In this document: piece by piece, positions 7,900 to 24,638 of the stretch
How the letters are laid out: every line of letters begins with the position of its first letter
Position numbering within the stretch: the stretch's first letter is position 1
Assembly: GCA_030770425.1 (NCBI GenBank)
Contig: JASJFT010000007.1
Location: forward strand, 438,245 to 502,244
Source: Darksidea phi
Taxonomy: Eukaryota; Ascomycota; Dothideomycetes; Pleosporales; Lentitheciaceae
Length of the DNA: 64,000 nt
Direction: 5' to 3'
Notes under the pieces: model-generated
Told to the model about the DNA's origin: nothing
Databases searched by the model: none
What the model saw: the letters and a program-made list of their open reading frames with translations, nothing else
Made by a program: the position numbers and the translations under genes

Positions 7900-8280
7900 A
7901 ATTGGCTTAACTTGAATCATCTCTCATGTAGTGCTTGGAAGCGTGGTTATCGTGCTCATCACCGCGCGAGGTCGATTCACCGGCTTTGGGCTCTGCCTTG
8001 CCTCCTTCCTCCAGAAACTCACGTCTCCATAAACTTGTGCTGCACCTCTTTTAGAGCTGCTGCAGCAACGCCAACACGCTACATTGGATGGAGCTCTTCC
8101 ATTTTAGAGAGTAGCGCATATACCGAAGTATGGAGAAGAGGGATGTGGACGTGGGAAGGGAGGGCTTTATAGTTGCGGTCTGACGCTCAGGCCGTCTACA
8201 TGTACACATCATATCACGGCTTTAGGTCACCCGTCGTCCCACCTATTTCAGGCGCGAATAGTGACGGTACTCAGCATCAT
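7900..8280 (-). repeat. Tandem module M1 of the TATA/CTAAAA array
   Basis: Read on the minus strand, this module has a dyad-like element at 8280-8261 (ATGATG, spacer, CGTCAC), a TATAAA box at 8171-8166, a CT-rich stretch, and two CTAAAA motifs at about 8110-8100 and 8056-8046. The spacings (about 95 bp from element to TATA, 60 and 115 bp from TATA to the two CTAAAA motifs) match the other modules. After the first CTAAAA it has GTGTTGGCGTTGCTGC, close to the matching stretch in the plus-strand modules. No conserved protein frame is present. Outer boundary is approximate. Confidence 0.7.
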
Positions 8281-8650
8281 CCCTGCGTTTGCGCAATCAC
8301 TCGTTTTACTCTCATTCCATGCATTATTCCCAAAAGCAAGCCAAACAACAAAACATCAGCCTCCATCCTGGCACATAACGGATACCTCTCGGTGCGATCA
8401 CAACGCAGGCCCTTACGCCTACATTCGGAGCGTAGCCAAAATTTTAGACAATAGCAATGCTCATAGACTGGACGATTCTTGGATTTAGAGACTGCCACGC
8501 ATAGTGGCGTGTAGGAAAAGAAGGCTGGGGAGAGAGTATTTGCACTTTCTATCGCTGGATTATGGTATGTTTTCATAAGGCTTGGGTTTCAGAGTAGTTT
8601 GAAGTGTATGTTGACGATCACTACTACTCTTCGCCGTGTGCATCCATGAC
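8281..8650 (-). repeat. Tandem module M2 of the TATA/CTAAAA array
   Basis: Minus-strand module with a degenerate TATA (GCAAATAC at 8543-8536), a CT-rich tract, CTACACGCCAC in the start region, TCTAAATCC near 8486, and TCTAAAATTTTGG at about 8450-8438. A short ATG-TAA reading frame (MSIAIV) sits just before the second CTAAAA. The upstream ATCA/TGAT element is poorly preserved here. Spacing to the neighbouring modules is about 350-370 bp. Confidence 0.65.
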
Positions 8651-9003
8651 TAACAGGAAGGCGTTGAAATCTGATAGACAAGCTATGAGCTTCTTGTCTG
8701 TCTAACCTCGAAGAACCACCAGCAACCATGTATTGAAACGTATGTAAGTTTTTGTATGACAACAGGTGCTCATGAGATGGAACCCCACACGATTTTCACG
8801 GGCCCATGAGTGCGCTCCTGGGTCTTTTTTAGGTAAGCCTAGGAAGGGTGCGGTGTGGAAAGTAGCAACGAGAACGAGTAGGGGTATTTATACCTATAGC
8901 TATCGGTCTTATGCCATCTGCATTCGCAAGCCAAAGCATATGTTCAGGTACTCTTTGTTTCTAGTCTATATGTCTGCAGACAAGTGATGATGTATAGCAT
9001 CAC
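8651..9003 (-). repeat. Tandem module M3 of the TATA/CTAAAA array
   Basis: Minus-strand module with an upstream dyad GTGATGctataCATCATCAC (9003-8984), a strong TATAAATA at 8892-8885 about 96 bp downstream, a CT-rich tract, CACACCGCAC in the start region, CCTAAAAAAG at 8833-8824, and an ATGGGCCCG followed by GAAAATCG where other copies have the second CTAAAA. CTACACCGCAC in plus-strand module P6 is nearly identical to its start region. Confidence 0.75.
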
Positions 9004-9395
9004 TACCGATCGTCCTCCCGCGAACGGTCTAATCCTAGGATAAACCAGTTACGCATCGCTACCTCCGCATTGAAAGACTAACCCTATGATGAGTATATAG
9101 GTGCTTGCCCAACATCGTAGTAGCACGACAAAACAGACGCAGGCACTCACATACCGCGCCGCTCTAGCATTTTAGAGTGAACCAAATCCCATGGGATTGG
9201 ACCTTTTATCATTTAATAACCGCTTATTGAGAGAGTGATGTAGAAAGAAAGAATATCAAGAGATAGTGGGAGTATTTATGCGTCCAGCCATCAGTTCCGA
9301 ACGAGATCTTATTGCCACTGAAAGCAAGACTTTGTAAACTCCATCAATTGATCGTTTGCTTCCAGGAAAGATAGTGATGCATACCTCCATCATCA
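9004..9395 (-). repeat. Tandem module M4 of the TATA/CTAAAA array
   Basis: Minus-strand module with an upstream element GATGATGgaggtatGCATCAC (9393-9373), ATAAATA at 9279-9273, a CT-rich tract ending CTACATCAC, then CCCATGGGATTTGG and TCTAAAATGC at about 9178-9169. The upstream element closely matches plus-strand module P1, including the following CTATCTTTCC versus CTATTCC. A possible, much weaker fifth copy with TATAAAT at 9715-9709 lies further upstream, but I cannot align the rest of it. Confidence 0.72.
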
Positions 9396-10512
9396 TATCT
9401 CTTACTAACTCCACTCCGAAACCCCTACCCTCTCTATGCTGATAAATAGTTCTCTAGTAATTTAAAGATTTTATACCATATTTATCGAACGAGTAGCAGC
9501 CATCGCGTCGTCATACTCGCGGAATAATCCAAAAAGGTGATACAGAAAGGCATTTCGTCCCGAATACGTTGAAATGCAAGAAAGGTTGTTAGTTGTAGTT
9601 ATTACGCACTTCACGGCATGAATGCGAGGGCAACAGCCCGAGCCTCATGAAAGAGGGCGTGGCGCGTGCTGGAAATTTGAAGTAATATATTAGTTTATTA
9701 TACCATAGATTTATATTACTCACACTGGTCAAAACATGACCGCAACATCGACGCCACCTAGCAGTCAAATCTCTAGGTCATCTACTAAGCTGTCTTCTCG
9801 TGGTCATGGTTATGGGCAACTTGGGCGTGGAGGTAATGGACCTAGGGAGAATATAGAGTTCATGATATGAGTAGTAGGATCAAAGAGTAGAAAGAATACG
9901 ATATTCGTCCAAAAACTCCAACTCCCTTTCTCTCATTTTACCTATTACCGAAATCCACCAACGCAACACAACTACTCAGAAGCTTTAATATCAACAAACA
10001 CAGCTACACCACCAATTTAGTACAAACCTATCGGATCAAGGTGTGAGGGTGAAGAGGAGACATTAACAGTTAGCCAGGACCTATTTTTCCTCACGGTTTG
10101 GAAACTTCCCACTAAACAGCATCGTGATTTTCCGCATGCATCATGACAGCAAAACAAAGTATGACATTGGAAGTAGCTACAAGAGCGGAGGTGGGCTATA
10201 CTCATATCCATCATTTCACCATTTAAAAGCCTTTCATTGACAGCCTAACACCTTCCCATCCTATCTCACATGCAACGCCCAACATACTAATAGCGAGTCT
10301 CATCATATCGTCGCAGCATCCGAAAATGGCCAAAATCGGCCCAGCGAGTGACTGGTATCAGATCCAGAGAAGAACAGAACCAAGATTCTCAATGCCACAC
10401 CAATCCACTATGTTCCCCAGAAGCGGAAAGTTGATCTCAGAGAGCGTAGAAACCAACGGGACCAAGACGCCGAATCCACCGTTCCATGCAGTCGTATAGC
10501 GGTGCGAAGTCA
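9396..10512. other. Gene-free stretch between the M array and YAP1
   Basis: No protein-coding gene is supported. The 9.4-9.75 kb part is AT-rich and may contain a decayed further module (TATAAAT, minus strand, 9715-9709). The 9.9-10.5 kb part lies downstream of the YAP1 stop codon and probably includes its 3' UTR. I found no tRNA-like A or B boxes. Confidence 0.4.
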
Positions 10513-12398
10513 TCACCGCGGATCTTGCGGCAAACGCTTAAGGGCGGCCTCAACATCCTTGTGGTCAACAACAACGCCACTCTCTGAACAGCGAGCCTTG
10601 GCGCGGAGCTCTGAGCACAAGTTGTCGATATCGATGGTGCCGTCTTTGAAGTCGGGACGGTTGGCAAGCTTATCCCTGCTGGTAGTTAGCATCGGTATTG
10701 TAGAAGGACGTAAATACACTAACCATATCTTATGGCAGTTGAGCATCTGCGATACGTCCTCACCTGGAACCACCTCCTCGTCGCCATCTTGTAGGCGCTC
10801 AATTTCCTCGAGTGGGTTCGGCTTCTGCACCGCCGGCGTATCGCCAAAGTGGAATGGGCTGCCAAAGTCCGTAATCGGGAAGGCGTCGTTGAAGAAGCCA
10901 TTGGTAAAGTCGCCATCGCCGACGATGGCGGCTTGCGAGTCGCGGTAGTCTCCGAAAAGAGCTGGGTCGAACTGGCCACCGTTCTGATTGGCGAAAAAGT
11001 CGAGGCCGGTGAAGTCGGCAGCAGGAGTCTTTGCGGGTCCTGCAGGAGGGGATCTCGTGTCAGACGATGACATGGCGCGGGGGATAGGGTTGCGAGGGTT
11101 TCCGCAGGCCATGTTAAGCTTCTCGCAGAAGGTAATCTCACCTTCCGAATTTCCATGACACACATAGCCTTCGGCGATAGTATCCGCATTGCCGGGCGAG
11201 TTATGGCTTGGCTCAGGCGACGTATCGCACGACGAATTCTGACCACCGACCGAGGTAGATGATGCTGAGGGCGAGTCGGAGTGCGTGGACGAGCTGCTGT
11301 TGAATGTGAATACACGGTTCGGGGCGTTTGCCGAGTCAGTGGATGAGGCATTGCTGTTGGCAAACCCATTGACGCTGCCAGAACGCTGCGCGCCGCTCGT
11401 CGCCGGGCTGGCCCCATTTTTGTCGGGAGAAGCGGCAGTTGAGCTAGCACTCTGGGTCTTGGGGCTCGTGCCCGTACCAGTGCTTGAAATCGAAGCGCTC
11501 TTGTTCTTTGAAAGGGGTCCATTATCGAGAATGTGTGCTCCTGGAAGTCCGCCGAAGCGTGGGAAGTCAAACTGGAAGTTGCTGACATTGGGTCCGCCAC
11601 TATTCAGCAGCGAACTGAAGCCTCCGACGATGGGAGGCGAGCGGCTTACACCGGTGCTGTTAAGCGATAGGCGCTTGCGATACTCGCGCAATTCCACTTG
11701 GAGTCGCTGCACCTGAGCGCGTAGAAGGCCGTTTTCGTGGTTTGTGGCGTCAGATGCCTTCTCTAGCTCAGCGACTTTGGTCTCGAGGTCTTTCAAATGC
11801 TTCTCTTTCCGCTCTCTGAACGCTCGCTGCGCCGCTCGATTTTGCGCTTTTCGTTTCTGCAGATGGATTAGCATCGATCCTCGGCAGGAACTGCAGATAG
11901 ACATACTGTTGTCGGTTCTGATGTTAGTGGCTTTCTACCAGGCTTCTTCGCCTGCTTATCTTCTCCTTCTCTTCGCTTACCACCACCCTCGGCCTCGTCT
12001 TCAGCGTCATCTGGGCTCTTGCGCTTCTCTTGGGACTCGCCTGGGGAATCACCAGGCAGGTCCCCAATCATGGCGTCGCCATTGTCGGCACCGTCGAAGT
12101 CAAAGTTTGTCTCGCCGTCGAGATAGTCGGCGAAGGGACTCTCTTCGACACCGTTGTTGAACGCGGTCACTGGTGTGGCTTGCTGCGGAGAGGTGAAGGC
12201 GTAAGGGTCGATATTGTCGACTGAGAACGGAAACTGCTGGCCATTCGCCGGGTGCCTGTTATCGTCCAAGCCGGATGCGAAGATATCGTTGGTATTCTGG
12301 GTGTTCGAGGACAGCGCTGCGAGTAGCAGGTCCTGCTGGTTGGGGTCGAGGTAGAAGGACGCGCCGTTCTGGAAGTCGTTTGTCGACGTTCCAGCCAT
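10513..12398 (-). CDS. YAP1: AP-1-like bZIP factor, redox sensor (Yap1 type)
   Basis: Three exons (12398-11907, 11856-10724, 10675-10513) with 50- and 48-nt introns encode about 595 residues. Residues ~155-220 are the bZIP: NRAAQRAFRERK basic region preceded by KPGRKPLTSEPTTKRKAQ, then a leucine zipper. The PAP1 region follows. The n-CRD has cysteines in YVCHGN, TFCEKL and MACGN; the c-CRD has MLNCHKIW, NLCSEL and KARCSE. In this family, peroxide makes disulfides between the two cysteine regions that mask the nuclear export signal, so the factor accumulates in the nucleus and induces antioxidant genes. The first intron falls immediately before the bZIP (TT|KRK) and the last splits the Trp codon of the c-CRD. 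A 1.5-kb divergent upstream region separates it from the SPF30 gene. Confidence 0.94.
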
Positions 12399-15737: not shown

Positions 15738-18700
15738 ATGGAGGCCGATTGGGACGAGGTGAAGCCCCCTGCGCCGCCCACAACGCCTAGCCCTCGTCGC
15801 CTTGGGGTACGGTATATGCTAGAGAAAGGAAGAAGCTAAATGCCCCCGTAGCTTGCGATTGTCCAGCTCCCTCCGCCTGGCCCACATCATCCCACCACAC
15901 AGGTAGCCACTTTCGCTTTCGACACGTCTCAGGAACTGCTGTGGACCGGCAACGACTATGTGAGTATGTCTGGGTTGGCAGCATGGGAGGCATTTGTGTT
16001 GATGCGCTTGTAGGGCCGAGTCACGTCATTTTATGGTCCCACGCTCGAACGTTACACGTCGTACCGCGGCCATGCCCCCTCGGAAGGCGCCGTCAAGCAG
16101 CTACTATTCACCGACAAAGGCATCCTCTCCGTGTCGAAGCAAAGCGTCCACTACTCCTTGCGCAGAGGACTAGCACAATGGCATTTGACGTACGTTGGGG
16201 AGCCGTACTGTGTGATGAGGTGTGAGCGGGTGCTGATTGAAAGGCTAGGAGCGCCGACTTCAAAGAACTCCGCTGCATGAACTTCACCTCGAAGGGGACC
16301 CGAGAGATCTTGGTGGCGGGATGTCAGGACAAAATGTTCAAGGTCGACGTGGAGAAGGGCGCGATTATAGACACCGTGAGCACGTCTGGCGAGACATATT
16401 GGATGCCCTACTGACCCGATTCAGCTCGACACCGAAGCTCAATACACCCTCATGAAACGGGCTGGACAGTATCTCTGCGCCGCAACCAAAAATGGCGGAA
16501 TACACATCCTCGACTCGGGCTCCTTAACTGTCATCAAAGTGTTCGATGGGCATACCGGCAGCATCAGTGACATGGATGCGAAGGGCGACTTTCTAGCGAC
16601 CTGCGGCTGGTCCCCGAGGCAGCAGTTCGGTTTCATGCTCGATCCGTTCACGAATGTCTTTTCGCTAAAGACCTTGAAACAACTGCCGCCGATCCCATTT
16701 CACACGGGCGCTGCCTTCGTACGAATGCACCCGCGCATGTCGACGACAGCTATCATTGCTTCACAGAACGGCCAGATGCAGGTCATTGATCTAATGAACC
16801 CCGATTCAGCCAATCTGCGACAAATCAACCTGTTCGACTCGTATCTGACGGGATTCGAAATGGCTCCCTCGGGGGAAGCTTTTTCGCTGGCTGATTCCAA
16901 CTGCCATATTCACCTGTGGGGATCCCCGGCGAAGATTCACTTTCCCGAGTACAGCAACCCGACCGAGTTTGCAGATGCTGTCATACCACCACCAGCCATG
17001 GATTGGTCATTGGATACGTAAGTGGCAACAAATCCAGGTTTGATCAAGATTAACCCGCATAGACCTTTGAACACTGTGGGGATGCCCTTCTACAAAGAGC
17101 ATCTGCTGTCGGGCTGGCCAAGCCACATGATCTTTGAGGTCGGCGCGCCACCCCCTAAGATTGATAGCACGATTCTAAACAGTATGACCCGAACCGAAAT
17201 TGGCTTCTATGCGAAGAATCCCAGAACGAAGCGAAGATACCAGGTCGAAGATACGCGACAGGCTGACAGGGCTAATGACTCTTTGTCGGCACCGAAGTTC
17301 TTGAGCGAGAAAGCGCGTGCGGCACAGTCCTTGAGCGAGTCGGACGTGAAAACAGCGGAGACTATGGAGACTCTGACTGACATGCATCTCGACGATGTGA
17401 CCAGGAAAGACGTGCCAGCTATGTATGGTAATGTGGAGATCAAGTACAGCAAATTCGGTGTCGACGACTTTGACTTTGCGTAAGTGAAGATAGTCTACTC
17501 AACACCAACCCTAACTTGCGTCAGGTACTACAATCAGACGCAGTACTCCGGATTGGAAACACACATCACAAACTCATACGCCAATTCGCTACTGCAGCTC
17601 TTCCGCTTTACCCCCTTGATCCGTAACTTGGCGTTACGCCATACCGCCTCACCCTGCCTCTTCGAATCCTGTCTTCTATGCGAACTTGGCTTCCTCATAG
17701 ACATGCTCGAGAAAGCCGCTGGACTCAACTGCCAAGCGTCGAACTTTTTGAAGACATTCAGCGGCCTGTCCAACGCCGTATCGCTCAATCTGTTAGAAGA
17801 ATTTGCGCCTAATGTCGCTCTTACTACAATGATACAAGCGTTCAATCGCTTTCTGCTCGAGAAAGTGTCGGAAGAGTTCCGTCAGATGCTCCCAAGTCAC
17901 AGTGGCCCCTCCTTGATGGATAAGGTTCTGGAAACGCAAGCGCGAGCTAGCATGCGATGCGCCCAATGCGCGAACGAAACCATCAGAGGTGGAAGAACAT
18001 TCGTCAATGAGCTTGTATACCCGGCGAAACATGTGATGAAGAACTCGAGAGTGCCACGCCCAACTTTCTCCCAGATCCTCAAAGCTAGTGTAGAGCGACA
18101 AGATCAGACTAGGGGCTGGTGTAACAAGTGCAATCGCTACCAGCAGATGGTACAACGAAAGACTATTCAGTCCGTTCCTGGTGTCCTCGTTCTCAACGCA
18201 GCCATCCAGAGCCATGAAGCGAAGCTACTTTGGTCGATACCGAACTGGCTTCCTCAGGAAATTGGGATCATAGTAGATCAAGGCCAATTCTACTGCTTTG
18301 AAGGGCAAGACCTCAAGCTGCACCTACAGCGTGGCGTGTTTGATATCATGGTCTACGAGCTTGTAGGAGTTGTGGCGGATATCAACAGTGGCGAACATCA
18401 GAAGCCGCATTTAGTGGCGACTATCAACACAGCCCCGTCTAGCCGAGAGGCGGTTGGCGAAGACAAGTGGTATCTCTTCAATGACTTCTTGGTTCGATCA
18501 ATACCGAAAGAAGAGGCTCTTCGGTTCGAGCCCAGCTGGAAACTCCCTTCAGTACTCTCCTTCCAGGCGAAGTCTGCCAGGCACAAGATCGACGACTCAT
18601 GGAAGGATAACCTCGATACATCTATTCTGTATCGGTGGTGGTCGTCTAATCCTGCGCCGCCAAATGACAAATTCAGGCTTCTAGAGTCGAACTCTGAAGC

Positions 18701-19472
18701 GCCGCGCCCGGGATATCCGGTAGCTATTGATGCGGAATTTATCCGACTGCAGTCGGAAGAGATTGAGATAAAGGCCGATGGCACGCGCGAGACCATCCGT
18801 CCAGACAGAAAAGGGCTTGCCCGTGTCTCCGTCTGTCGCGGCGAAGGAGAGCATGCTGGATTACCTTTCATCGATGACTACATTGCCGTCACCGAACATG
18901 TAGTCGACTACCTCACCGCCTGGTCCGGCATCTCACCCGGCGACCTCAATCGCGAAACCTCACATCACGCCCTCGTCTCGCTCAAGCACGCCTATAAAAA
19001 GCTATGGCTATTACTCAACTTGGGCTGCGTCTTCGTCGGTCACTCCCTCGCCAACGACTTCCGCACCATCAACATCCACGTCCCCAGAAAGCAAGTCGTC
19101 GACACAGTAGACCTCTTCTTCAAACCCTCCCTTCACCGCAAACTCAACCTCAAATTCCTCGCCTGGTGCGTCCTCAGAGAGTCAATTCAAGAAGACACGC
19201 ACGACAGCATCGAAGACGCTACAACGGCACTTAAACTTTGGCGCAAGTATGAAGAGTTCATGGATGCGGGCGTGCTCGAACAGATGCTTGATGATATCTA
19301 TGCTACGGGCAGTCAATACAGGTTTCGCGCGCCGGGCAGTGCGAATGGGAAGGAGAGGGCTGGTGAGAGGGATACACCGGAGCCGGGGAGTGCGGAGAAG
19401 GCGGGGGTTTTGACGACGCCGAGGAAGGGTGGGACGTTTGGGAGGGTGGGGTTTAGGAGTCCGATGAGATGA
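15738..19472 (+). CDS. PAN2: PAN2 deadenylase catalytic subunit
   Basis: Seven exons: 15738-15806, 15852 (or 15867)-15959, 16014-16189, 16249-16375, 16425-17017, 17063-17479, 17525-19472. The product is about 1145 residues (1140 with the later acceptor). The N-terminal WD region includes ELLWTGNDY; a catalytically inactive ubiquitin-hydrolase-like domain follows (NSYANSLLQLFRF; zinc-type cysteines CAQC and CNKC). The C-terminal DEDDh exonuclease has AIDAEFIRL (D, E), HSLANDFRTIN (D) and HDSIEDATTALKLW (H, D). With Pan3 it trims poly(A) tails bound by Pab1 in the cytoplasm. The start MEADWDEV is the family start. The first intron has two in-frame AG acceptors 15 nt apart. All other junctions keep frame without ambiguity. 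Confidence 0.94.
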
Positions 19473-19620: not shown

Positions 19621-20109
19621 GATGATGTTAGACATCATCACCGCTATTCCACAGTACAGCTCGCTTCTCAGACTGCTCTTTCGCCGACAAGTCCGTGCGA
19701 TACGGTAGGATATAAATGCCCCTCTCTCACACCTTTTTCCTTTCCTTCCCTTCACACTACACTGCGTTACTGCAATACTTCTCGCTCTTAACTAAAAATC
19801 ATGGGACCGTGTCCATGGAGTTGTGCTTTTCTTTCTAAAGTTCAACCAATTCTTTGGCATGTTGCGTTGGCGTGTGGGAACAGTGGGGCGAGGGTGGACT
19901 AAAATAGCATATGCACGGAAACATGGGCTTTTTGCTTGGGGGAGGAAAGACATGGTAGTATGCCTGGGCTTGGGTCAGGTTGTTCAAGATGATGGTATTT
20001 GAGATGATGGGGGAGGAGGAGGATGTTATATGGATGGAGAGCACATCGACGGAGCTGTGGGATCATGCTGAGGTCGAGAAGTGGCGGCGATGGCGGTGGC
20101 GGCGGTAGT
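19621..20109 (+). repeat. Tandem module P1 of the TATA/CTAAAA array
   Basis: Perfect dyad GATGATGttaGACATCATC at 19621-19639, then ACCGCTATTCC, TATAAAT at 19711-19717, a long CT-rich tract, CACTACAC at 19755-19762, ACTAAAAATC near 19792, an ATGGGACCG, and TTTCTAAAG at about 19833-19840. A short frame starting at 19801 could encode about 33 residues, but it is not conserved in the other modules. This is the first of six plus-strand copies beginning about 150 bp after the PAN2 stop codon. Confidence 0.78.
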
Positions 20110-20514
20110 GTTGATGCTCATTATCAACACCACGCCTCCTTCGCTCATCTATTCGCAGCGTATATCCAGTGTAGTGAACGACCGTGCATCACTCCAAGCC
20201 TCCTATAAATTCTTCTCATTTCTTCCTTTGCGTGTTTTTCACACTACACCATGCTGTACTATTGACATTTACAGCGACTCTCTAAAACGAGGTGGGAATT
20301 GGCAAATGGTGTGTCCCTTGTTCTAAAATGCCGAACCACAGCAAGATATGTTGGTGTTGCTGGAGTGTGGGACTCACTAAAACGAGTCCGTAACAGGCCT
20401 ATGGGTTTGTGGTGTGCGTGGAAGCTCTTGGAGTACCTGGATAGACGTCATGAAGGGAGGAGGGGTAAACCATGAGCAAGGGTATCTGGAGTGTTTGCAG
20501 GAGCCAAGAAGGTG
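20110..20514 (+). repeat. Tandem module P2 of the TATA/CTAAAA array
   Basis: Dyad GTTGATgctcattATCAAC at 20110-20128 followed by ACCACGCCTCC, TATAAAT at 20204-20210, CT-rich tract, CACTACAC at 20242-20249, TCTAAAACGAGG at 20281 and TTCTAAAAT at 20321-20329. Downstream it carries TATGTTGGTGTTGCTGG, shared with P4. Only a very short reading frame (MVCPLF) precedes the second CTAAAA. Confidence 0.78.
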
Positions 20515-20878
20515 GTGTAGATCATCACTGCGTCTCCTATGTTAAGATGCACCGGCGAGACCTTTCCTTTCTACACCCCAGAAATCCTGAGTACGAGACC
20601 TATACTCATTAGAGCTTGATTTGCTTCGGCTATAGCTATCTCCCCGCTTGTTAGACTTTCTTCTGCACAGTGCGTCAAAACTTCCTTGTATTAAAAGATA
20701 CGGTGGAACACAAGATATGGGCGCTTTTTCTAAAACTAGCGAGATAGATTGGTGTTTCAGCGTATGGCTGCGTTCCTGGGTATAATTTGTTTGTGATAGA
20801 GCACTGATTTTCTTAGAAATTCGCCTGAAGGGTTATGCTGGAAGTAAGGAGAGCATGAGCCAAGGCGATGCTGGTGTG
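20515..20878 (+). repeat. Tandem module P3 of the TATA/CTAAAA array
   Basis: Upstream element ATCATCACTGCGTCTCC at 20521, a degenerate TATA (TATAGCTAT near 20631), CTGCACAGTGCG in the start region, TTAAAAGATAC, then ATGGGCGCTTTTTCTAAAAC with the second motif at 20729-20737. It is the most degraded copy in the TATA region but retains the spacing. Confidence 0.68.
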
Positions 20879-21274
20879 CATTGTCACTGCGACTCTGAGG
20901 TTGATATGCATCATCAATCCTTTTAGACGTGGTCACTATAGGCCGTAGAGGGTATACATTTGACTAATCGGACTTGCCAGCTCTACGTATAAATATCCCC
21001 CCCTTTCGGAGCTCTTCTACTGCACACTACCTCGAAGGCCGTTTTTTTGAAAAGAAAACCAAGGAAGCAAACCGATGGGCTTGCGCTTTCTAAAATTTTA
21101 CAGCGAACCAGACTATGTTGGTGCGTTGCTTGTTCCGTAGGGATAAAAACAAGCCTTGGACGGTGACAATGGGTCGTTGGAGGGGTGTAAATGCGAATCG
21201 CACCAGCCAATGGGATGTGTTCGGTCTTGAGCGGAAATGCATGTGGGTATCGAAGGAATATAAAGGGAGTGGTG
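20879..21274 (+). repeat. Tandem module P4 of the TATA/CTAAAA array
   Basis: Upstream element TGTCACTGCGACTC at 20882, a TGATATGCATCATCA partial dyad, TATAAATA at 20988-20995, pyrimidine tract, CACTACC at 21025, a purine-rich AAAAGAAAACC in place of the first CTAAAA, and ATGGGCTTGCGCTTTCTAAAAT ending near 21096 (20-residue scale only). It shares ACTATGTTGGTGCGTTGC with P2. Confidence 0.75.
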
Positions 21275-21656
21275 TTCATCATCACTGCCACTCGTGGTGG
21301 CTTCGAGGGTGTAACAAGGGTCTTCATACTGTACTAGTTCCGAATGTGGGATCTTCAGTGTTCATAGCGCTGAATTATGCATATATAAACCCATAATCCT
21401 CCTCCCTCTGTCTCTCCTCTGCACTACACTTACACTGATCGTAACTAAAATCATTGTGGAAGATTCAGATGGGATTGTTGCCTGTGCTTTTCTAAAATTC
21501 AATGACAAAAGACGGCCATGCTGGCGTGTGGTTGCCTCCGGGAGTGTACAAAAGCCGATTTCAAAACCAACTATGTGCCTGTGGAGTATCTGGAATCTTG
21601 GACTAGGGGAGTGAAATATACATGAGTAGAGCTAATCTGTCAACGTAGCAATTATG
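21275..21656 (+). repeat. Tandem module P5 of the TATA/CTAAAA array
   Basis: Upstream element CATCATCACTGCCACTC at 21278, TATATAAA at 21382-21389, CT-rich tract, CACTACAC at 21422-21429, ACTAAAATC near 21443, ATGGGATTGTTGCC, and TTCTAAAATTC at 21490. The spacing from TATA to the two CTAAAA motifs is about 61 and 108 bp. The reading frame after ATG stops within nine codons at the second CTAAAA. Confidence 0.78.
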
Positions 21657-22000
21657 CGGATCACCACTACAAAAGGATGGATATGAGCTTTCTCAGATCT
21701 TCATGTTCGTTTCAAATGCTTGAATCGCTGAGATTGACGTTGTCAGCGGTGAGGATGTGTATAAATATCCTTCCCCCTCTCAATCTATTTCTCTTCTACA
21801 CCGCACGCTTCGCGAGTCTTGACTAAAATGTTGACAGACCCGTACATGGGATTGTTGTTGTTCTTCCCTAAAACTGCAGTGATTGGGCGTGTACCGTTGC
21901 CGCGGAACCTGTTTCTGATTAGGGTAAAAGGTCGAAGTTAGATCCGGGACCTTATGAGTGTGTTTCAAAGTGAACAGAGGTCGACGCAGCTATTATCTAT
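21657..22000 (+). repeat. Tandem module P6 of the TATA/CTAAAA array
   Basis: Upstream element GATCACCACTAC near 21659, TATAAATA at 21760-21767, CT-rich tract, CTACACCGCAC at 21797-21807, ACTAAAATG near 21823, ATGGGATTGTTGTTG and CCTAAAAC at 21867. This is the last recognisable plus-strand copy; the following sequence changes to an unrelated AT-rich stretch and then repeat copy 1. Confidence 0.75.
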
Positions 22001-22048: not shown

Positions 22049-22285
22049 CAGGCAATTTTTATACCATGGGCGATAGTGTGGGTGTACTAACTCATCGCTA
22101 CTGCTGTTGGTCTCTCAACCGCCTCAATGTTCGACTTTCGAAACATCACCTCGTCGGTATCTCACGATCGGCAATACTGTGTACAGCTCTACAGCTCTAT
22201 TATTGTGTATAAGGTGTAGGTATAGCACCTCTACTGTGTTTCGTGCGGACCTTACAAAAGAGACCTTCACTATGCAAATCCAAAA
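22049..22285 (+). repeat. Dispersed repeat, copy 1
   Basis: About 235 bp that match, with small indels, the reverse complement of 26934-27198 and the plus strand of 39333-39513. Shared blocks include GGCAATTTTTATA, CTGTTGGTCTC, CTACAGCTCTATTAT, AGCACCTCTACTGT, CGTGCGGACCTT and ATGCAAATCC. It directly precedes an A9C10-type homopolymer tract. The family could be a MITE or solo LTR remnant; the ends are not defined well enough to say which. Confidence 0.75.
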
Positions 22286-22432
22286 AAAAACCCCCCCCCC
22301 TCCCCTAACTAGCTGATACTTAGATTAATACCTAAGAAATTCCCTGTGTATTTAAACGATCTACGGCGGAAGGCGAGTCAGCGGGGTTTAGTTTACGGGT
22401 AGGCAAAAGCCACTACCATGTGTACCCATGAG

Positions 22433-24638
22433 CTAGGGATTGGATGGAGCACTCACATTGTCCTCCGGGCAGCAGTATCTGAGACCATGTGCAAAGGGAT
22501 TTCCTGGTTCAGGATGTACAAGGGTTGGTGTGTAGCTGGTGTTTGGGCGCATGTTGATGTGGTTCGGTGGGGGATAATCTGCCGGGTTGTACGGGGGATA
22601 GTGTGCATAAGGATTTCCTGGTTCGAAGTGTACAAGGGGTGGGGTCCATATTCTAGGAGATAATCTGCCGGGTTGCACGGTGGTGTATATGGGGGAGGGC
22701 CCATATTCTAGGAGATAATTCGGGTTGCACGGGGGATATTGTGCATCTACGGGCTGGGTTGGGGGTGGGGGAAAGTAGTTTGTCTCTGGGAAGTAGCGAG
22801 CGTCTGCGCCGACGGGGGCAGTGGGAGGAGGGCTTAGGCTTCGGTATTGCCGCCTTCGATTTTGTTCTGGGCGTAATGTGGGACTCAATGAGCGCGCTCG
22901 TTGTTCCTGATAAGCTAAGTCTCTGGCGTCAGCGGCCGTCTTCTGCCTGATCTGCTCAGAACTCTGCAGGATCCGACCATTACCCAGCAAAGCCTGCCAG
23001 TATCTGGGGTCATCTGCACCGCATGCCAAATGGTTCAACCAATCTTGAGGTGAATAGCTCTCATCAAGCGATTTAATTCTGACGATAGTAATTTCGTCAG
23101 TGCGGATGAGCACCTTTACCGCATCTCCAGCGTTCTCACCGAAGAGTCGCGTCGCCAGAGCCACCGATTTTCTATACAATTCATCCGCATCATCATGGTC
23201 TTTGATGGCCTGAGCCTGTTTCGCCAGTAGCACTAAAGTTTTGATGTTCATCATAGCTTGCTGAGAATCTGCAATCCCGTGAGGCTCTGGGACGGTTCTT
23301 CCAGGCGGCTTTTGAGGCAAGCGCTCCCCATACACTTGACAGCGCGCGAATATAGGCTCTGTCGGATATGGGATGAATTTTATACCGCGCTCAGTGTCAC
23401 GTGCAAACCTATCGGATGCAAATCTGTTCTGTATCAAGGTGATACAAAGCCATTGGCCCAGCGTGACACATTCAAAATATAGACACGCCAGGAATTTGCC
23501 ACCGAAAAGATGCAGAAGAGGCAGGCAAAGGTGGATGCCGCGAGCACTGACAGCGGGTGGATTCGTCCCATGTTCGAAGTCGCCATACTTGCGACCTCTA
23601 CCGTCGGCGGACATCAGAGCCGCTTTAAGTTGGTGGTCCGGGATACGATGGAGATCTGAGTAATTCCACTTCATTCCGTACAATCGCTTGAATTCGTCAG
23701 GATTGCGCGCAAACATTGAGCTAAAAGCGTTGTCATTGGCTCGTTGGAGACGAGACCGATCGGAGTTTCCACCAAGGAGAACACTCTTGCAGGACGCTAC
23801 GGCGACAGGATTCTCATCGTATCCCTGACCGGGCCAAGCGAAGATTGTGTAGTCTTCTACACTTTGTAGAACATGTTCTTGAAGCCGGAGGAAGGCTCGC
23901 TCGCCTTCTCCGTAAAGGAGCGGCATGTTGACCTCGAAGATACCAAAGAGGCAGTAAGCTTTATCCTCTACTCTCGTGGTCTGTCTTTCTGCGGCCCATG
24001 ACATCTTTTCCGCGACATTGAAGTGAAAGAGTGGTTCGCCTACTAAAGCGCGAGAGTTGATTCCCGTGACTGCACTAATCTCGTCCCGAAGCTGCGATCG
24101 TGAGCCGAATGATTCCCAGTTCGCTGCATAAAATTCAACAACAGGAGGGGCTAGGAGTTCCTGGAGGGTCCAACCACGAGTGAACCACCGACTGTGTTTG
24201 AAACGACGTTTCACGTCGAAAAGGTCGCCCCAATTTGGATCTCTAACAGTGTTTGCGCAAGGTATATCTGACAGGTAGGCGTAACAGATGGTCGAGCCCT
24301 GATACCAAGCATACATTGAATTGATCGCCTCTGATAGCTCTGCGCTACTAGTCTTGTCGATACTGCAAACTCTTAGTATTGAAAATCACAGACCGGAGTC
24401 AGACCCACCAGCAAGTATCAATCCAAGCGTAACGGAAGCCATCGTCTCGCGCTTGCTTGCAGCAAGCTACTACTTTCTTGAATCCTTGCTTATTCTCTAA
24501 ATATGATTCATCATTATCTCTTAAGTCTTGAAACGTAACCTCTTCACCTTCCCATGTATGCGATAGGGTTGCATAGTGGTTGGATAATGCATCATGAAAG
24601 TACTCGAGCTGAAGTGTCGTCGTGTTGACCAACCACAT
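22433..24638 (-). CDS. HET-domain (heterokaryon incompatibility) protein
   Basis: Two exons (24638-24409 and 24362-22433) separated by a 46-nt intron encode about 719 residues. The start MWLVNTTTLQLEYF and the blocks YATLSHTW, WIDTCCIDKTSSAELSEAIN (spanning the splice), SRWFTRGWTLQELLAP and DKAYCLFGIF..MPLLYGEGERAF define the HET domain. HET proteins trigger allorecognition cell death or defence in filamentous fungi. A helical stretch near residue 490 (LAKQAQAIKDHDDADELYRKS) resembles a TPR/MIT hairpin. The last ~150 residues are proline- and tyrosine-rich and made of imperfect repeats. The gene lies between inverted copies of a dispersed repeat, in the most repeat-rich part of the window. 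Confidence 0.9.
22497..22750 (-). repeat. Minisatellite-like repeats in the HET C-terminus
   Basis: Two or three imperfect copies of the blocks GGATTTCCTGGTTC..GTACAAGGG and GATAATCTGCCGGGTTG(T/C)ACGG lie within the coding region, producing repeated P/Y/N-rich peptide such as PPYNPADY and EPGNP. Copy number is likely to vary between strains. Confidence 0.7.

Follow-up and report, generated by a model that had tools for sequence, protein, structure and literature searches.

Dispersed tandem arrays of promoter-like, non-coding units with an iterated CTAAAA-N(17-20)-ATG element in Darksidea phi

The 64,000-nucleotide stretch of Darksidea phi DNA analyzed here (the window; C445:438245-502244 in a 51.35 Mb assembly of 477 contigs) contains two tandem arrays belonging to a dispersed genome-wide family, similar arrays being found on at least 11 other contigs (at least 12 in all). 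The conserved core of this family is a bipartite element, CTAAAA-N(17-20)-ATG, which is iterated inside the units and was missed in a preliminary description of one of the arrays. That description had proposed selection on a transcription unit or regulatory element. Its conserved, non-coding, promoter-like architecture is now strongly supported by cross-detection between arrays, by a spacing rule and by the lack of a common reading frame. A family of small Pol II non-coding RNA (ncRNA) genes appears to be the best reading, as judged from the layout of TATA box, pyrimidine tract and CACAC sequence.

The array described at the outset lies at 19621-22000 on the plus strand and comprises six diverged units, whose lengths (489, 400, 360, 395, 390 and 345 bp) agree with the 345-490 bp given earlier. 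The array and its neighbors are as follows.

17484-19472 (+): 3' part of PAN2, the gene upstream of the plus-strand array
19621-20109 (+): unit U1; TATA at 19711, CACTACAC at 19755, elements at 19792-19817 and 19899-19925
20110-20509 (+): unit U2; TATA at 20204, CACTACAC at 20242, elements at 20282-20308, 20323-20350 and 20377-20403
20510-20869 (+): unit U3; degenerate TATAGC at 20631, TTAAAA then ATGGG, CTAAAA at 20730 without an ATG at 17-20 nt; no exact element
20870-21264 (+): unit U4; TATA at 20988, element at 21090-21117
21265-21654 (+): unit U5; TATA at 21382/21384, CACTACAC at 21422, elements at 21445-21471 and 21492-21520
21655-21999 (+): unit U6; TATA at 21760, CTACACCGCAC, element at 21823-21848; extra CTAAAA at 21868 without an ATG at 17-20 nt
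22433-24316 (-): gene converging on the plus-strand array from the right; weak TPR_12 match below the cut-off, HET-like by eye

The six units are genuinely similar, with a mean z of 5.05 over the 15 pairwise local alignments (100 dinucleotide shuffles per unit pair, units cut at the upstream element), and these alignments cover most of each unit. Three pairs are weak, namely U2-U6 (z 1.2, 10 of 100 shuffles as good), U1-U3 (2.2, 3 of 100) and U3-U6 (2.4, 2 of 100); the remaining 12 were reached by none of their 100 shuffles. The TATA boxes listed above, including the degenerate one, stand where they had been placed in the preliminary description, as do the pyrimidine tracts and CACAC-type sequences. 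Other features proved looser than claimed. The presumed CACTACAC-type start is exact in only three of the six units, and so is the upstream element ATCATCAC (19634, 20521 and 21278), which is weak across the family: ATCATC on either strand occurs in 12 of 35 upstream stretches and in 6 of 35 downstream control stretches. The first CTAAAA-type box, 60-81 nt past TATA, is present in five of six units (four exact, TTAAAA in U3) and missing from U4; the second, 99-119 nt past TATA, is also present in five, U1 having CTAAAG slightly farther on. A third such box in U1 and U2 had been overlooked. The check for excess conservation at the TATA, start and CTAAAA positions did not overturn the claim. It was equally right that the units have no reading frame in common; no start-codon context is kept either. 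Just past the array, positions 22281-22301 hold an A run followed by a C run, and short diverged repeats of 26-44 nt (D1, D3, D4, D7) are found at 22488-22746, within the 3' end of the 22433-24316 (-) gene.

A series of CTAAAA on the minus strand from 9175 to 7687 revealed four further units, also overlooked in the first reading.

7990-9420 (-): second tandem array, whole; between a PAP1/YAP1-type bZIP gene (-, from 10513) and the RAV1 gene (+, to about 7303)
9167-9280 (-): core of unit M1; model match, element at 9150-9175
8747-8894 (-): core of unit M2; element at 8805-8832, best non-self match of the plus units-only model (E 1.9e-6)
8439-8544 (-): core of unit M3; element at 8422-8447
8082-8172 (-): core of unit M4; elements at 8082-8107 and 8028-8054

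This second array stands directly behind the bZIP gene (10513-12398) and converges on RAV1. A model built from the six plus-strand units only, with which 201 kb were scanned, detected all four minus-strand units (E of 1.9e-6, 0.024, 0.17 and 0.68); apart from these, its non-self hits with an E of 5 or less were confined to an element inside U2 and two positions in locus L007. Conversely, a model of the four minus-strand units detected five of the six plus-strand units (E from 4.9e-4 to 0.46), missed U3 and gave no other match. With each array recognized by the model of the other, the architecture is seen to extend beyond local tandem duplication.

A model of all ten units, run over 137 kb of the flanking contig, gave two matches, L002:3759 and L007:2304, both with an E of 0.0012. 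Genome-wide, a first unit pattern had six matches (one in the reversed control), of which two are in the window array, two on contig C469 and two were dropped; L016 and L017 were dropped because the model detected nothing there. On C469, L020 is a clear array and L021 one weaker unit. The latter (L021:1500-1604) stands alone, without a clear array, downstream of an open frame (691-1323) that by eye has the look of a small secreted protein. A further unit pattern, containing the ATG, yielded 24 matches (13 in the reversed control), several of them in AT-rich sequence, and a TATAAA-CTAAAA-CTAAAA pattern yielded 176 (12 in the reversed control), a figure left unused as a count because most of the 100 matches listed sit in AT-rich repeats. 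Such repeats, RIP-mutated in appearance by eye, occur on many contigs and inflate naive pattern counts. Ten more loci, pyrimidine-rich past TATA, were chosen by eye, seven from the 24-match pattern and three from the listed TATAAA-CTAAAA-CTAAAA matches; each has at least two sense-strand elements. Sixteen loci were kept: the two window arrays, L002, L007, L020, L021 and L024-L033. A separate small tandem repeat was seen at C172:42371-44114, with six similar CTAAAA...TTTGAATGG matches, four of them spaced 30 nt. A megablast search for plasmid DNA gave no match.

The arrays have a spacing rule in common. The plus- and minus-strand arrays of the window contain 9 and 5 elements against shuffle means of 0.053 and 0.042 (1000 shuffles per array, with a maximum of 2 elements in any), while outside the arrays there is one element in 58.8 kb of window and two in 117 kb of flank (3 in 176 kb). 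In the first five arrays, an ATG stands 17-20 nt downstream of 22 of the 30 CTAAAA (at 17 nt in 7, 18 in 7, 19 in 5 and 20 in 3), as compared with 3 of 47 background CTAAAA outside arrays. In the ten further loci, 50 of 63 sense CTAAAA fit this spacing (17 nt, 8; 18 nt, 21; 19 nt, 19; 20 nt, 2), a count in which nine of the 63 had been selected by the ATG-containing pattern, and which becomes 42 of 54 by our own count when those nine are left out; none of the six antisense CTAAAA fits. The three loci chosen without ATG in the pattern have 12 of 17 CTAAAA at the proper distance. An ATG at 17-20 nt is missing from 8 of the 30 CTAAAA in the first five arrays and from 13 of the 63 in the ten later loci. 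Over the whole genome, CTAAAA-N-ATGG has 295 occurrences with N17-20, whereas the control spacings N12-15 and N22-25 have 199 and 189. This is an excess near 100, or about 7 standard deviations by our own Poisson reckoning, and the same patterns read backwards (372, 355 and 349) show no comparable peak. The distance from the ATG to the next box varies widely, whereas the length of the spacer does not. As 40 of 72 collected elements read ATGG, some 180 elements may exist genome-wide; with 72 elements coming from 15 loci, our own estimate would be roughly 35-40 arrays.

CTAAAA is the most enriched hexamer of the first five arrays (30 against 1.08 expected, 28-fold) and TATAAA the third (16 against 1.03). 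The region from +8 to +42 after TATA has a C+T content of 0.70-0.94 in 17 units, and CAC follows 33-57 nt past TATA in 16 of them, M4 being the exception; the order TATA, pyrimidine tract, initiator is that of a Pol II transcription unit. CTAAAA is strongly biased toward the TATA strand, with 11 sense and 1 antisense in the plus-strand array, 5 and 0 in the minus-strand array and 63 and 6 in the ten other loci. This strict bias disfavors an array of DNA enhancers.

The composition of the element was profiled over the 72 elements from 15 loci, in which both boxes are fixed by selection. The base before the CTAAAA box is T or A, and A is enriched at -10 to -5 of the ATG (0.46 at -8). C or T stands at -1 in 72%, and G or T directly after the ATG in 91%; the next 15 nt or so are poor in A and rich in G/T. 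The spacers are enriched in A, and the inner spacer positions displayed hold little sequence information. Among one-mismatch variants of the box, changes are tolerated at positions 1, 2 and 6 and hardly at 3-5 (ATAAAA 5, GTAAAA 6, CTATAA none), this count covering single-letter variants only and so leaving TATAAA, two changes from CTAAAA, outside it. The CTAAAA box is predicted to be mostly unpaired (0.76), the value for comparison (0.52) being an all-position shuffle average not matched for composition; spacer and tail, at 0.47 and 0.42 against 0.52 for shuffles, are not especially unpaired.

Several known classes of genes were considered. Small protein-coding genes are rejected on three counts. 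Where another box follows within 80 nt of an element (20 cases), the TAA of that box is distributed 7/6/7 over the three frames and shows no frame link; the numbers of codons from ATG to stop are alike across frames (medians of 22, 17 and 21); and a purine does not dominate at -3 of the ATG (A 0.21, G 0.26, 72 elements), which gives no start-codon context. C/D or H/ACA snoRNAs are rejected for lack of a conserved fold: RNAalifold, applied to the part of 10 units between TATA and the second box, returned no pairs, U1, U4 and U5 fold no better than shuffles, and the 72 elements have a mean folding z of -0.39. Nor was a hairpin across the ATG found (duplex energy of -7.29 against -7.12, sd 0.26, for shuffled partners). 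Rfam 15 gave no match at gathering score in the whole window, only two matches at E up to 5 in the plus-strand array, both far below gathering scores, and no match in 54 kb from 13 array loci. ARAGORN found no tRNA gene in the window, which argues against tRNA-type Pol III genes.

Our leading explanation, to which we give tentative assent at a little under an even chance, is a dispersed family of short Pol II ncRNA genes whose repeated bipartite element is read by a protein. Most units would have their own core promoter, made up of TATA, about 30 nt of pyrimidine-rich sequence and a CACAC-type start about 40 nt past TATA, and the element would sit at about +20 from this presumed start. The order of TATA, pyrimidines, CACAC and element, together with the one-strand rule, favors transcribed units carrying the element in RNA. 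The RNA of each unit would be untranslated and would usually contain one to three exact copies of CUAAAA-N(17-20)-AUGKNG, each having a spacer rich in A and a tail rich in G/U and poor in A; the RNA would have no consensus fold. Since neither fold nor frame is kept, a protein reader of the RNA is favored: both halves might be recognized by a single RNA-binding protein or by RNA-binding domains in a fixed pair, and the RNA could serve as a scaffold or sponge with many binding sites. The strictness of the 17-20 nt distance, with a spacer of variable sequence, also fits the geometry of a DNA-level core promoter or of a 3'-end processing site.

The location of the arrays bears on the second of these. 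All eight arrays of which both flanks were read, among the 16 loci, occupy tail-to-tail gaps between genes (the two window arrays, L007, C469, C23, C46, C412 and C94, with flanks read as long open frames and the right flank of C94 weak). L027 may be an exception, as its array is followed on the same strand by a 342-aa open frame without a Pfam match. The neighbors include PAN2, whose best named relatives are from Pleosporales (e.g. Kalmusia sp. and Massarina eburnea at 87% identity), the PAP1/YAP1-type bZIP gene, RAV1, a DnaJ gene, an ankyrin gene, a C2H2 zinc-finger gene, an AMP-binding enzyme, a phosphatase/hydrolase frame and kinases; several flanking frames have no Pfam match. The PAN2 relatives point to a pleosporalean fungus, probably one of the Massarineae. 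In the strongest rival explanation, each CTAAAA-N18-YATGKNG would be a strong cleavage/polyadenylation or early termination site, with an A-rich hexamer lying some 24 nt ahead of the YA at which cleavage would occur and a G/U-rich downstream element, and a promoter followed by terminators would insulate tail-to-tail genes from read-through. It ranks first among the rivals because the composition profile fits (A-rich spacer, pyrimidine at -1, A-poor G/T-rich tail) and the position of the arrays between tail-to-tail genes would explain what it is for. We nevertheless consider it unlikely. The element is not a general 3'-end signal, since the 176 kb outside arrays contain only three copies and just 3 of 47 background CTAAAA have an ATG at the right distance; moreover, cleavage sites do not usually have a near-invariant ATG.

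Less likely again is an array of core promoters acting at the DNA level, in which CTAAAA would be TATA-like and the A of the ATG the start site, each element starting its own small RNA. The near-fixed, strand-specific distance would suit it, and the pyrimidine at -1 with an A at -8 is reminiscent of yeast start sites. However, the tolerance of the box, among single-letter variants, does not look TATA-like, with positions 3-5 hardly varying, no CTATAA and ATAAAA no commoner than GTAAAA, and a true TATA is already present upstream in most units.

A bolder form of the ncRNA reading, which we regard as doubtful, would make the arrays a guide-like RNA system or a genome-wide scaffold: tail-to-tail Pol II arrays in which CUAAAA and AUGKNG frame differing 17-20 nt segments, with a dedicated protein loading these segments or reading well over a hundred copies. 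As for precursors of guide or small RNAs whose framed segment pairs with a target, the variable sequence of near-constant length between constant boxes would be expected, but the spacers are A-enriched and their matches outside arrays (up to 3 mismatches, 176 kb) number 17 of 72 on the same strand and 10 of 72 on the opposite one, against 15.1 and 15.0 for dinucleotide shuffles, which is no excess. When single letters were shuffled instead, a rougher count (25 against 12 on the same strand and 17 against 12 on the opposite one) leaned slightly towards an excess. We hold this guide reading improbable. That the units are decayed duplicates without present function, their spacing kept by descent alone, would agree with their being homologous and diverged; it is very improbable given that the two boxes and the distance between them are retained in arrays on at least 12 contigs, amid spacers, linkers and flanks that hold little information. 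Least probable of all are tandem small ORFs or uORFs starting at the ATG: in 11 of 17 units the first ATG beyond +45 does fall 80-90 nt past TATA, but the frame, stop and -3 results above speak against translation.

Taken together, a rigid two-box rule on at least 12 contigs and the lack of an Rfam match point to an undescribed reader acting at the level of RNA or transcription, and the position of all eight resolved arrays between converging genes bears on what happens at facing gene ends.

In the literature searched, which largely excludes subscription papers where an earlier account may exist, no matching description of such families was found, nor did searches for the motif bring up a matching binding protein. 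C/D and H/ACA snoRNAs likewise place short boxes around variable sequence, but their boxes differ from CTAAAA/ATG and the arrays are without consensus fold or Rfam match. Yeast-type poly(A) sites consist of an A-rich element, YA and G/U-rich downstream sequence, an order that the array element shows; unlike them, it is nearly confined to arrays and has a strict ATG and spacing. Dictyostelium class I RNAs come from small, dispersed ncRNA genes that have a promoter layout in common and carry short conserved boxes, a description that suits the present units as well, whereas the arrays have iterated elements in place of paired conserved ends or a fold. The C. elegans 21U-RNA (piRNA) loci with their Ruby motif likewise consist of clustered small Pol II units that have a motif upstream of each; here, in contrast, the motif is of unrelated sequence, repeats inside a TATA-driven unit and is not known to go with a small RNA. 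In fission yeast, the Mmi1-binding meiRNA with its DSR is an ncRNA in which a hexamer is repeated many times as a protein-binding sponge, and the array units too carry a repeated hexamer in a predicted ncRNA. The DSR repeat UNAAAC itself was tried and rejected, since the top hexamer is CTAAAA; TAAAAC (14 against 0.96) fits U-N-AAAC but is rivaled by TAAAAT (17 against 1.24), and TTAAAC, TCAAAC and TGAAAC fall outside the top 45 enriched hexamers of the five arrays. In place of UNAAAC, the Darksidea family has CUAAAA with an AUGKNG partner at a near-fixed distance, set in promoter-bearing tandem units at many loci.
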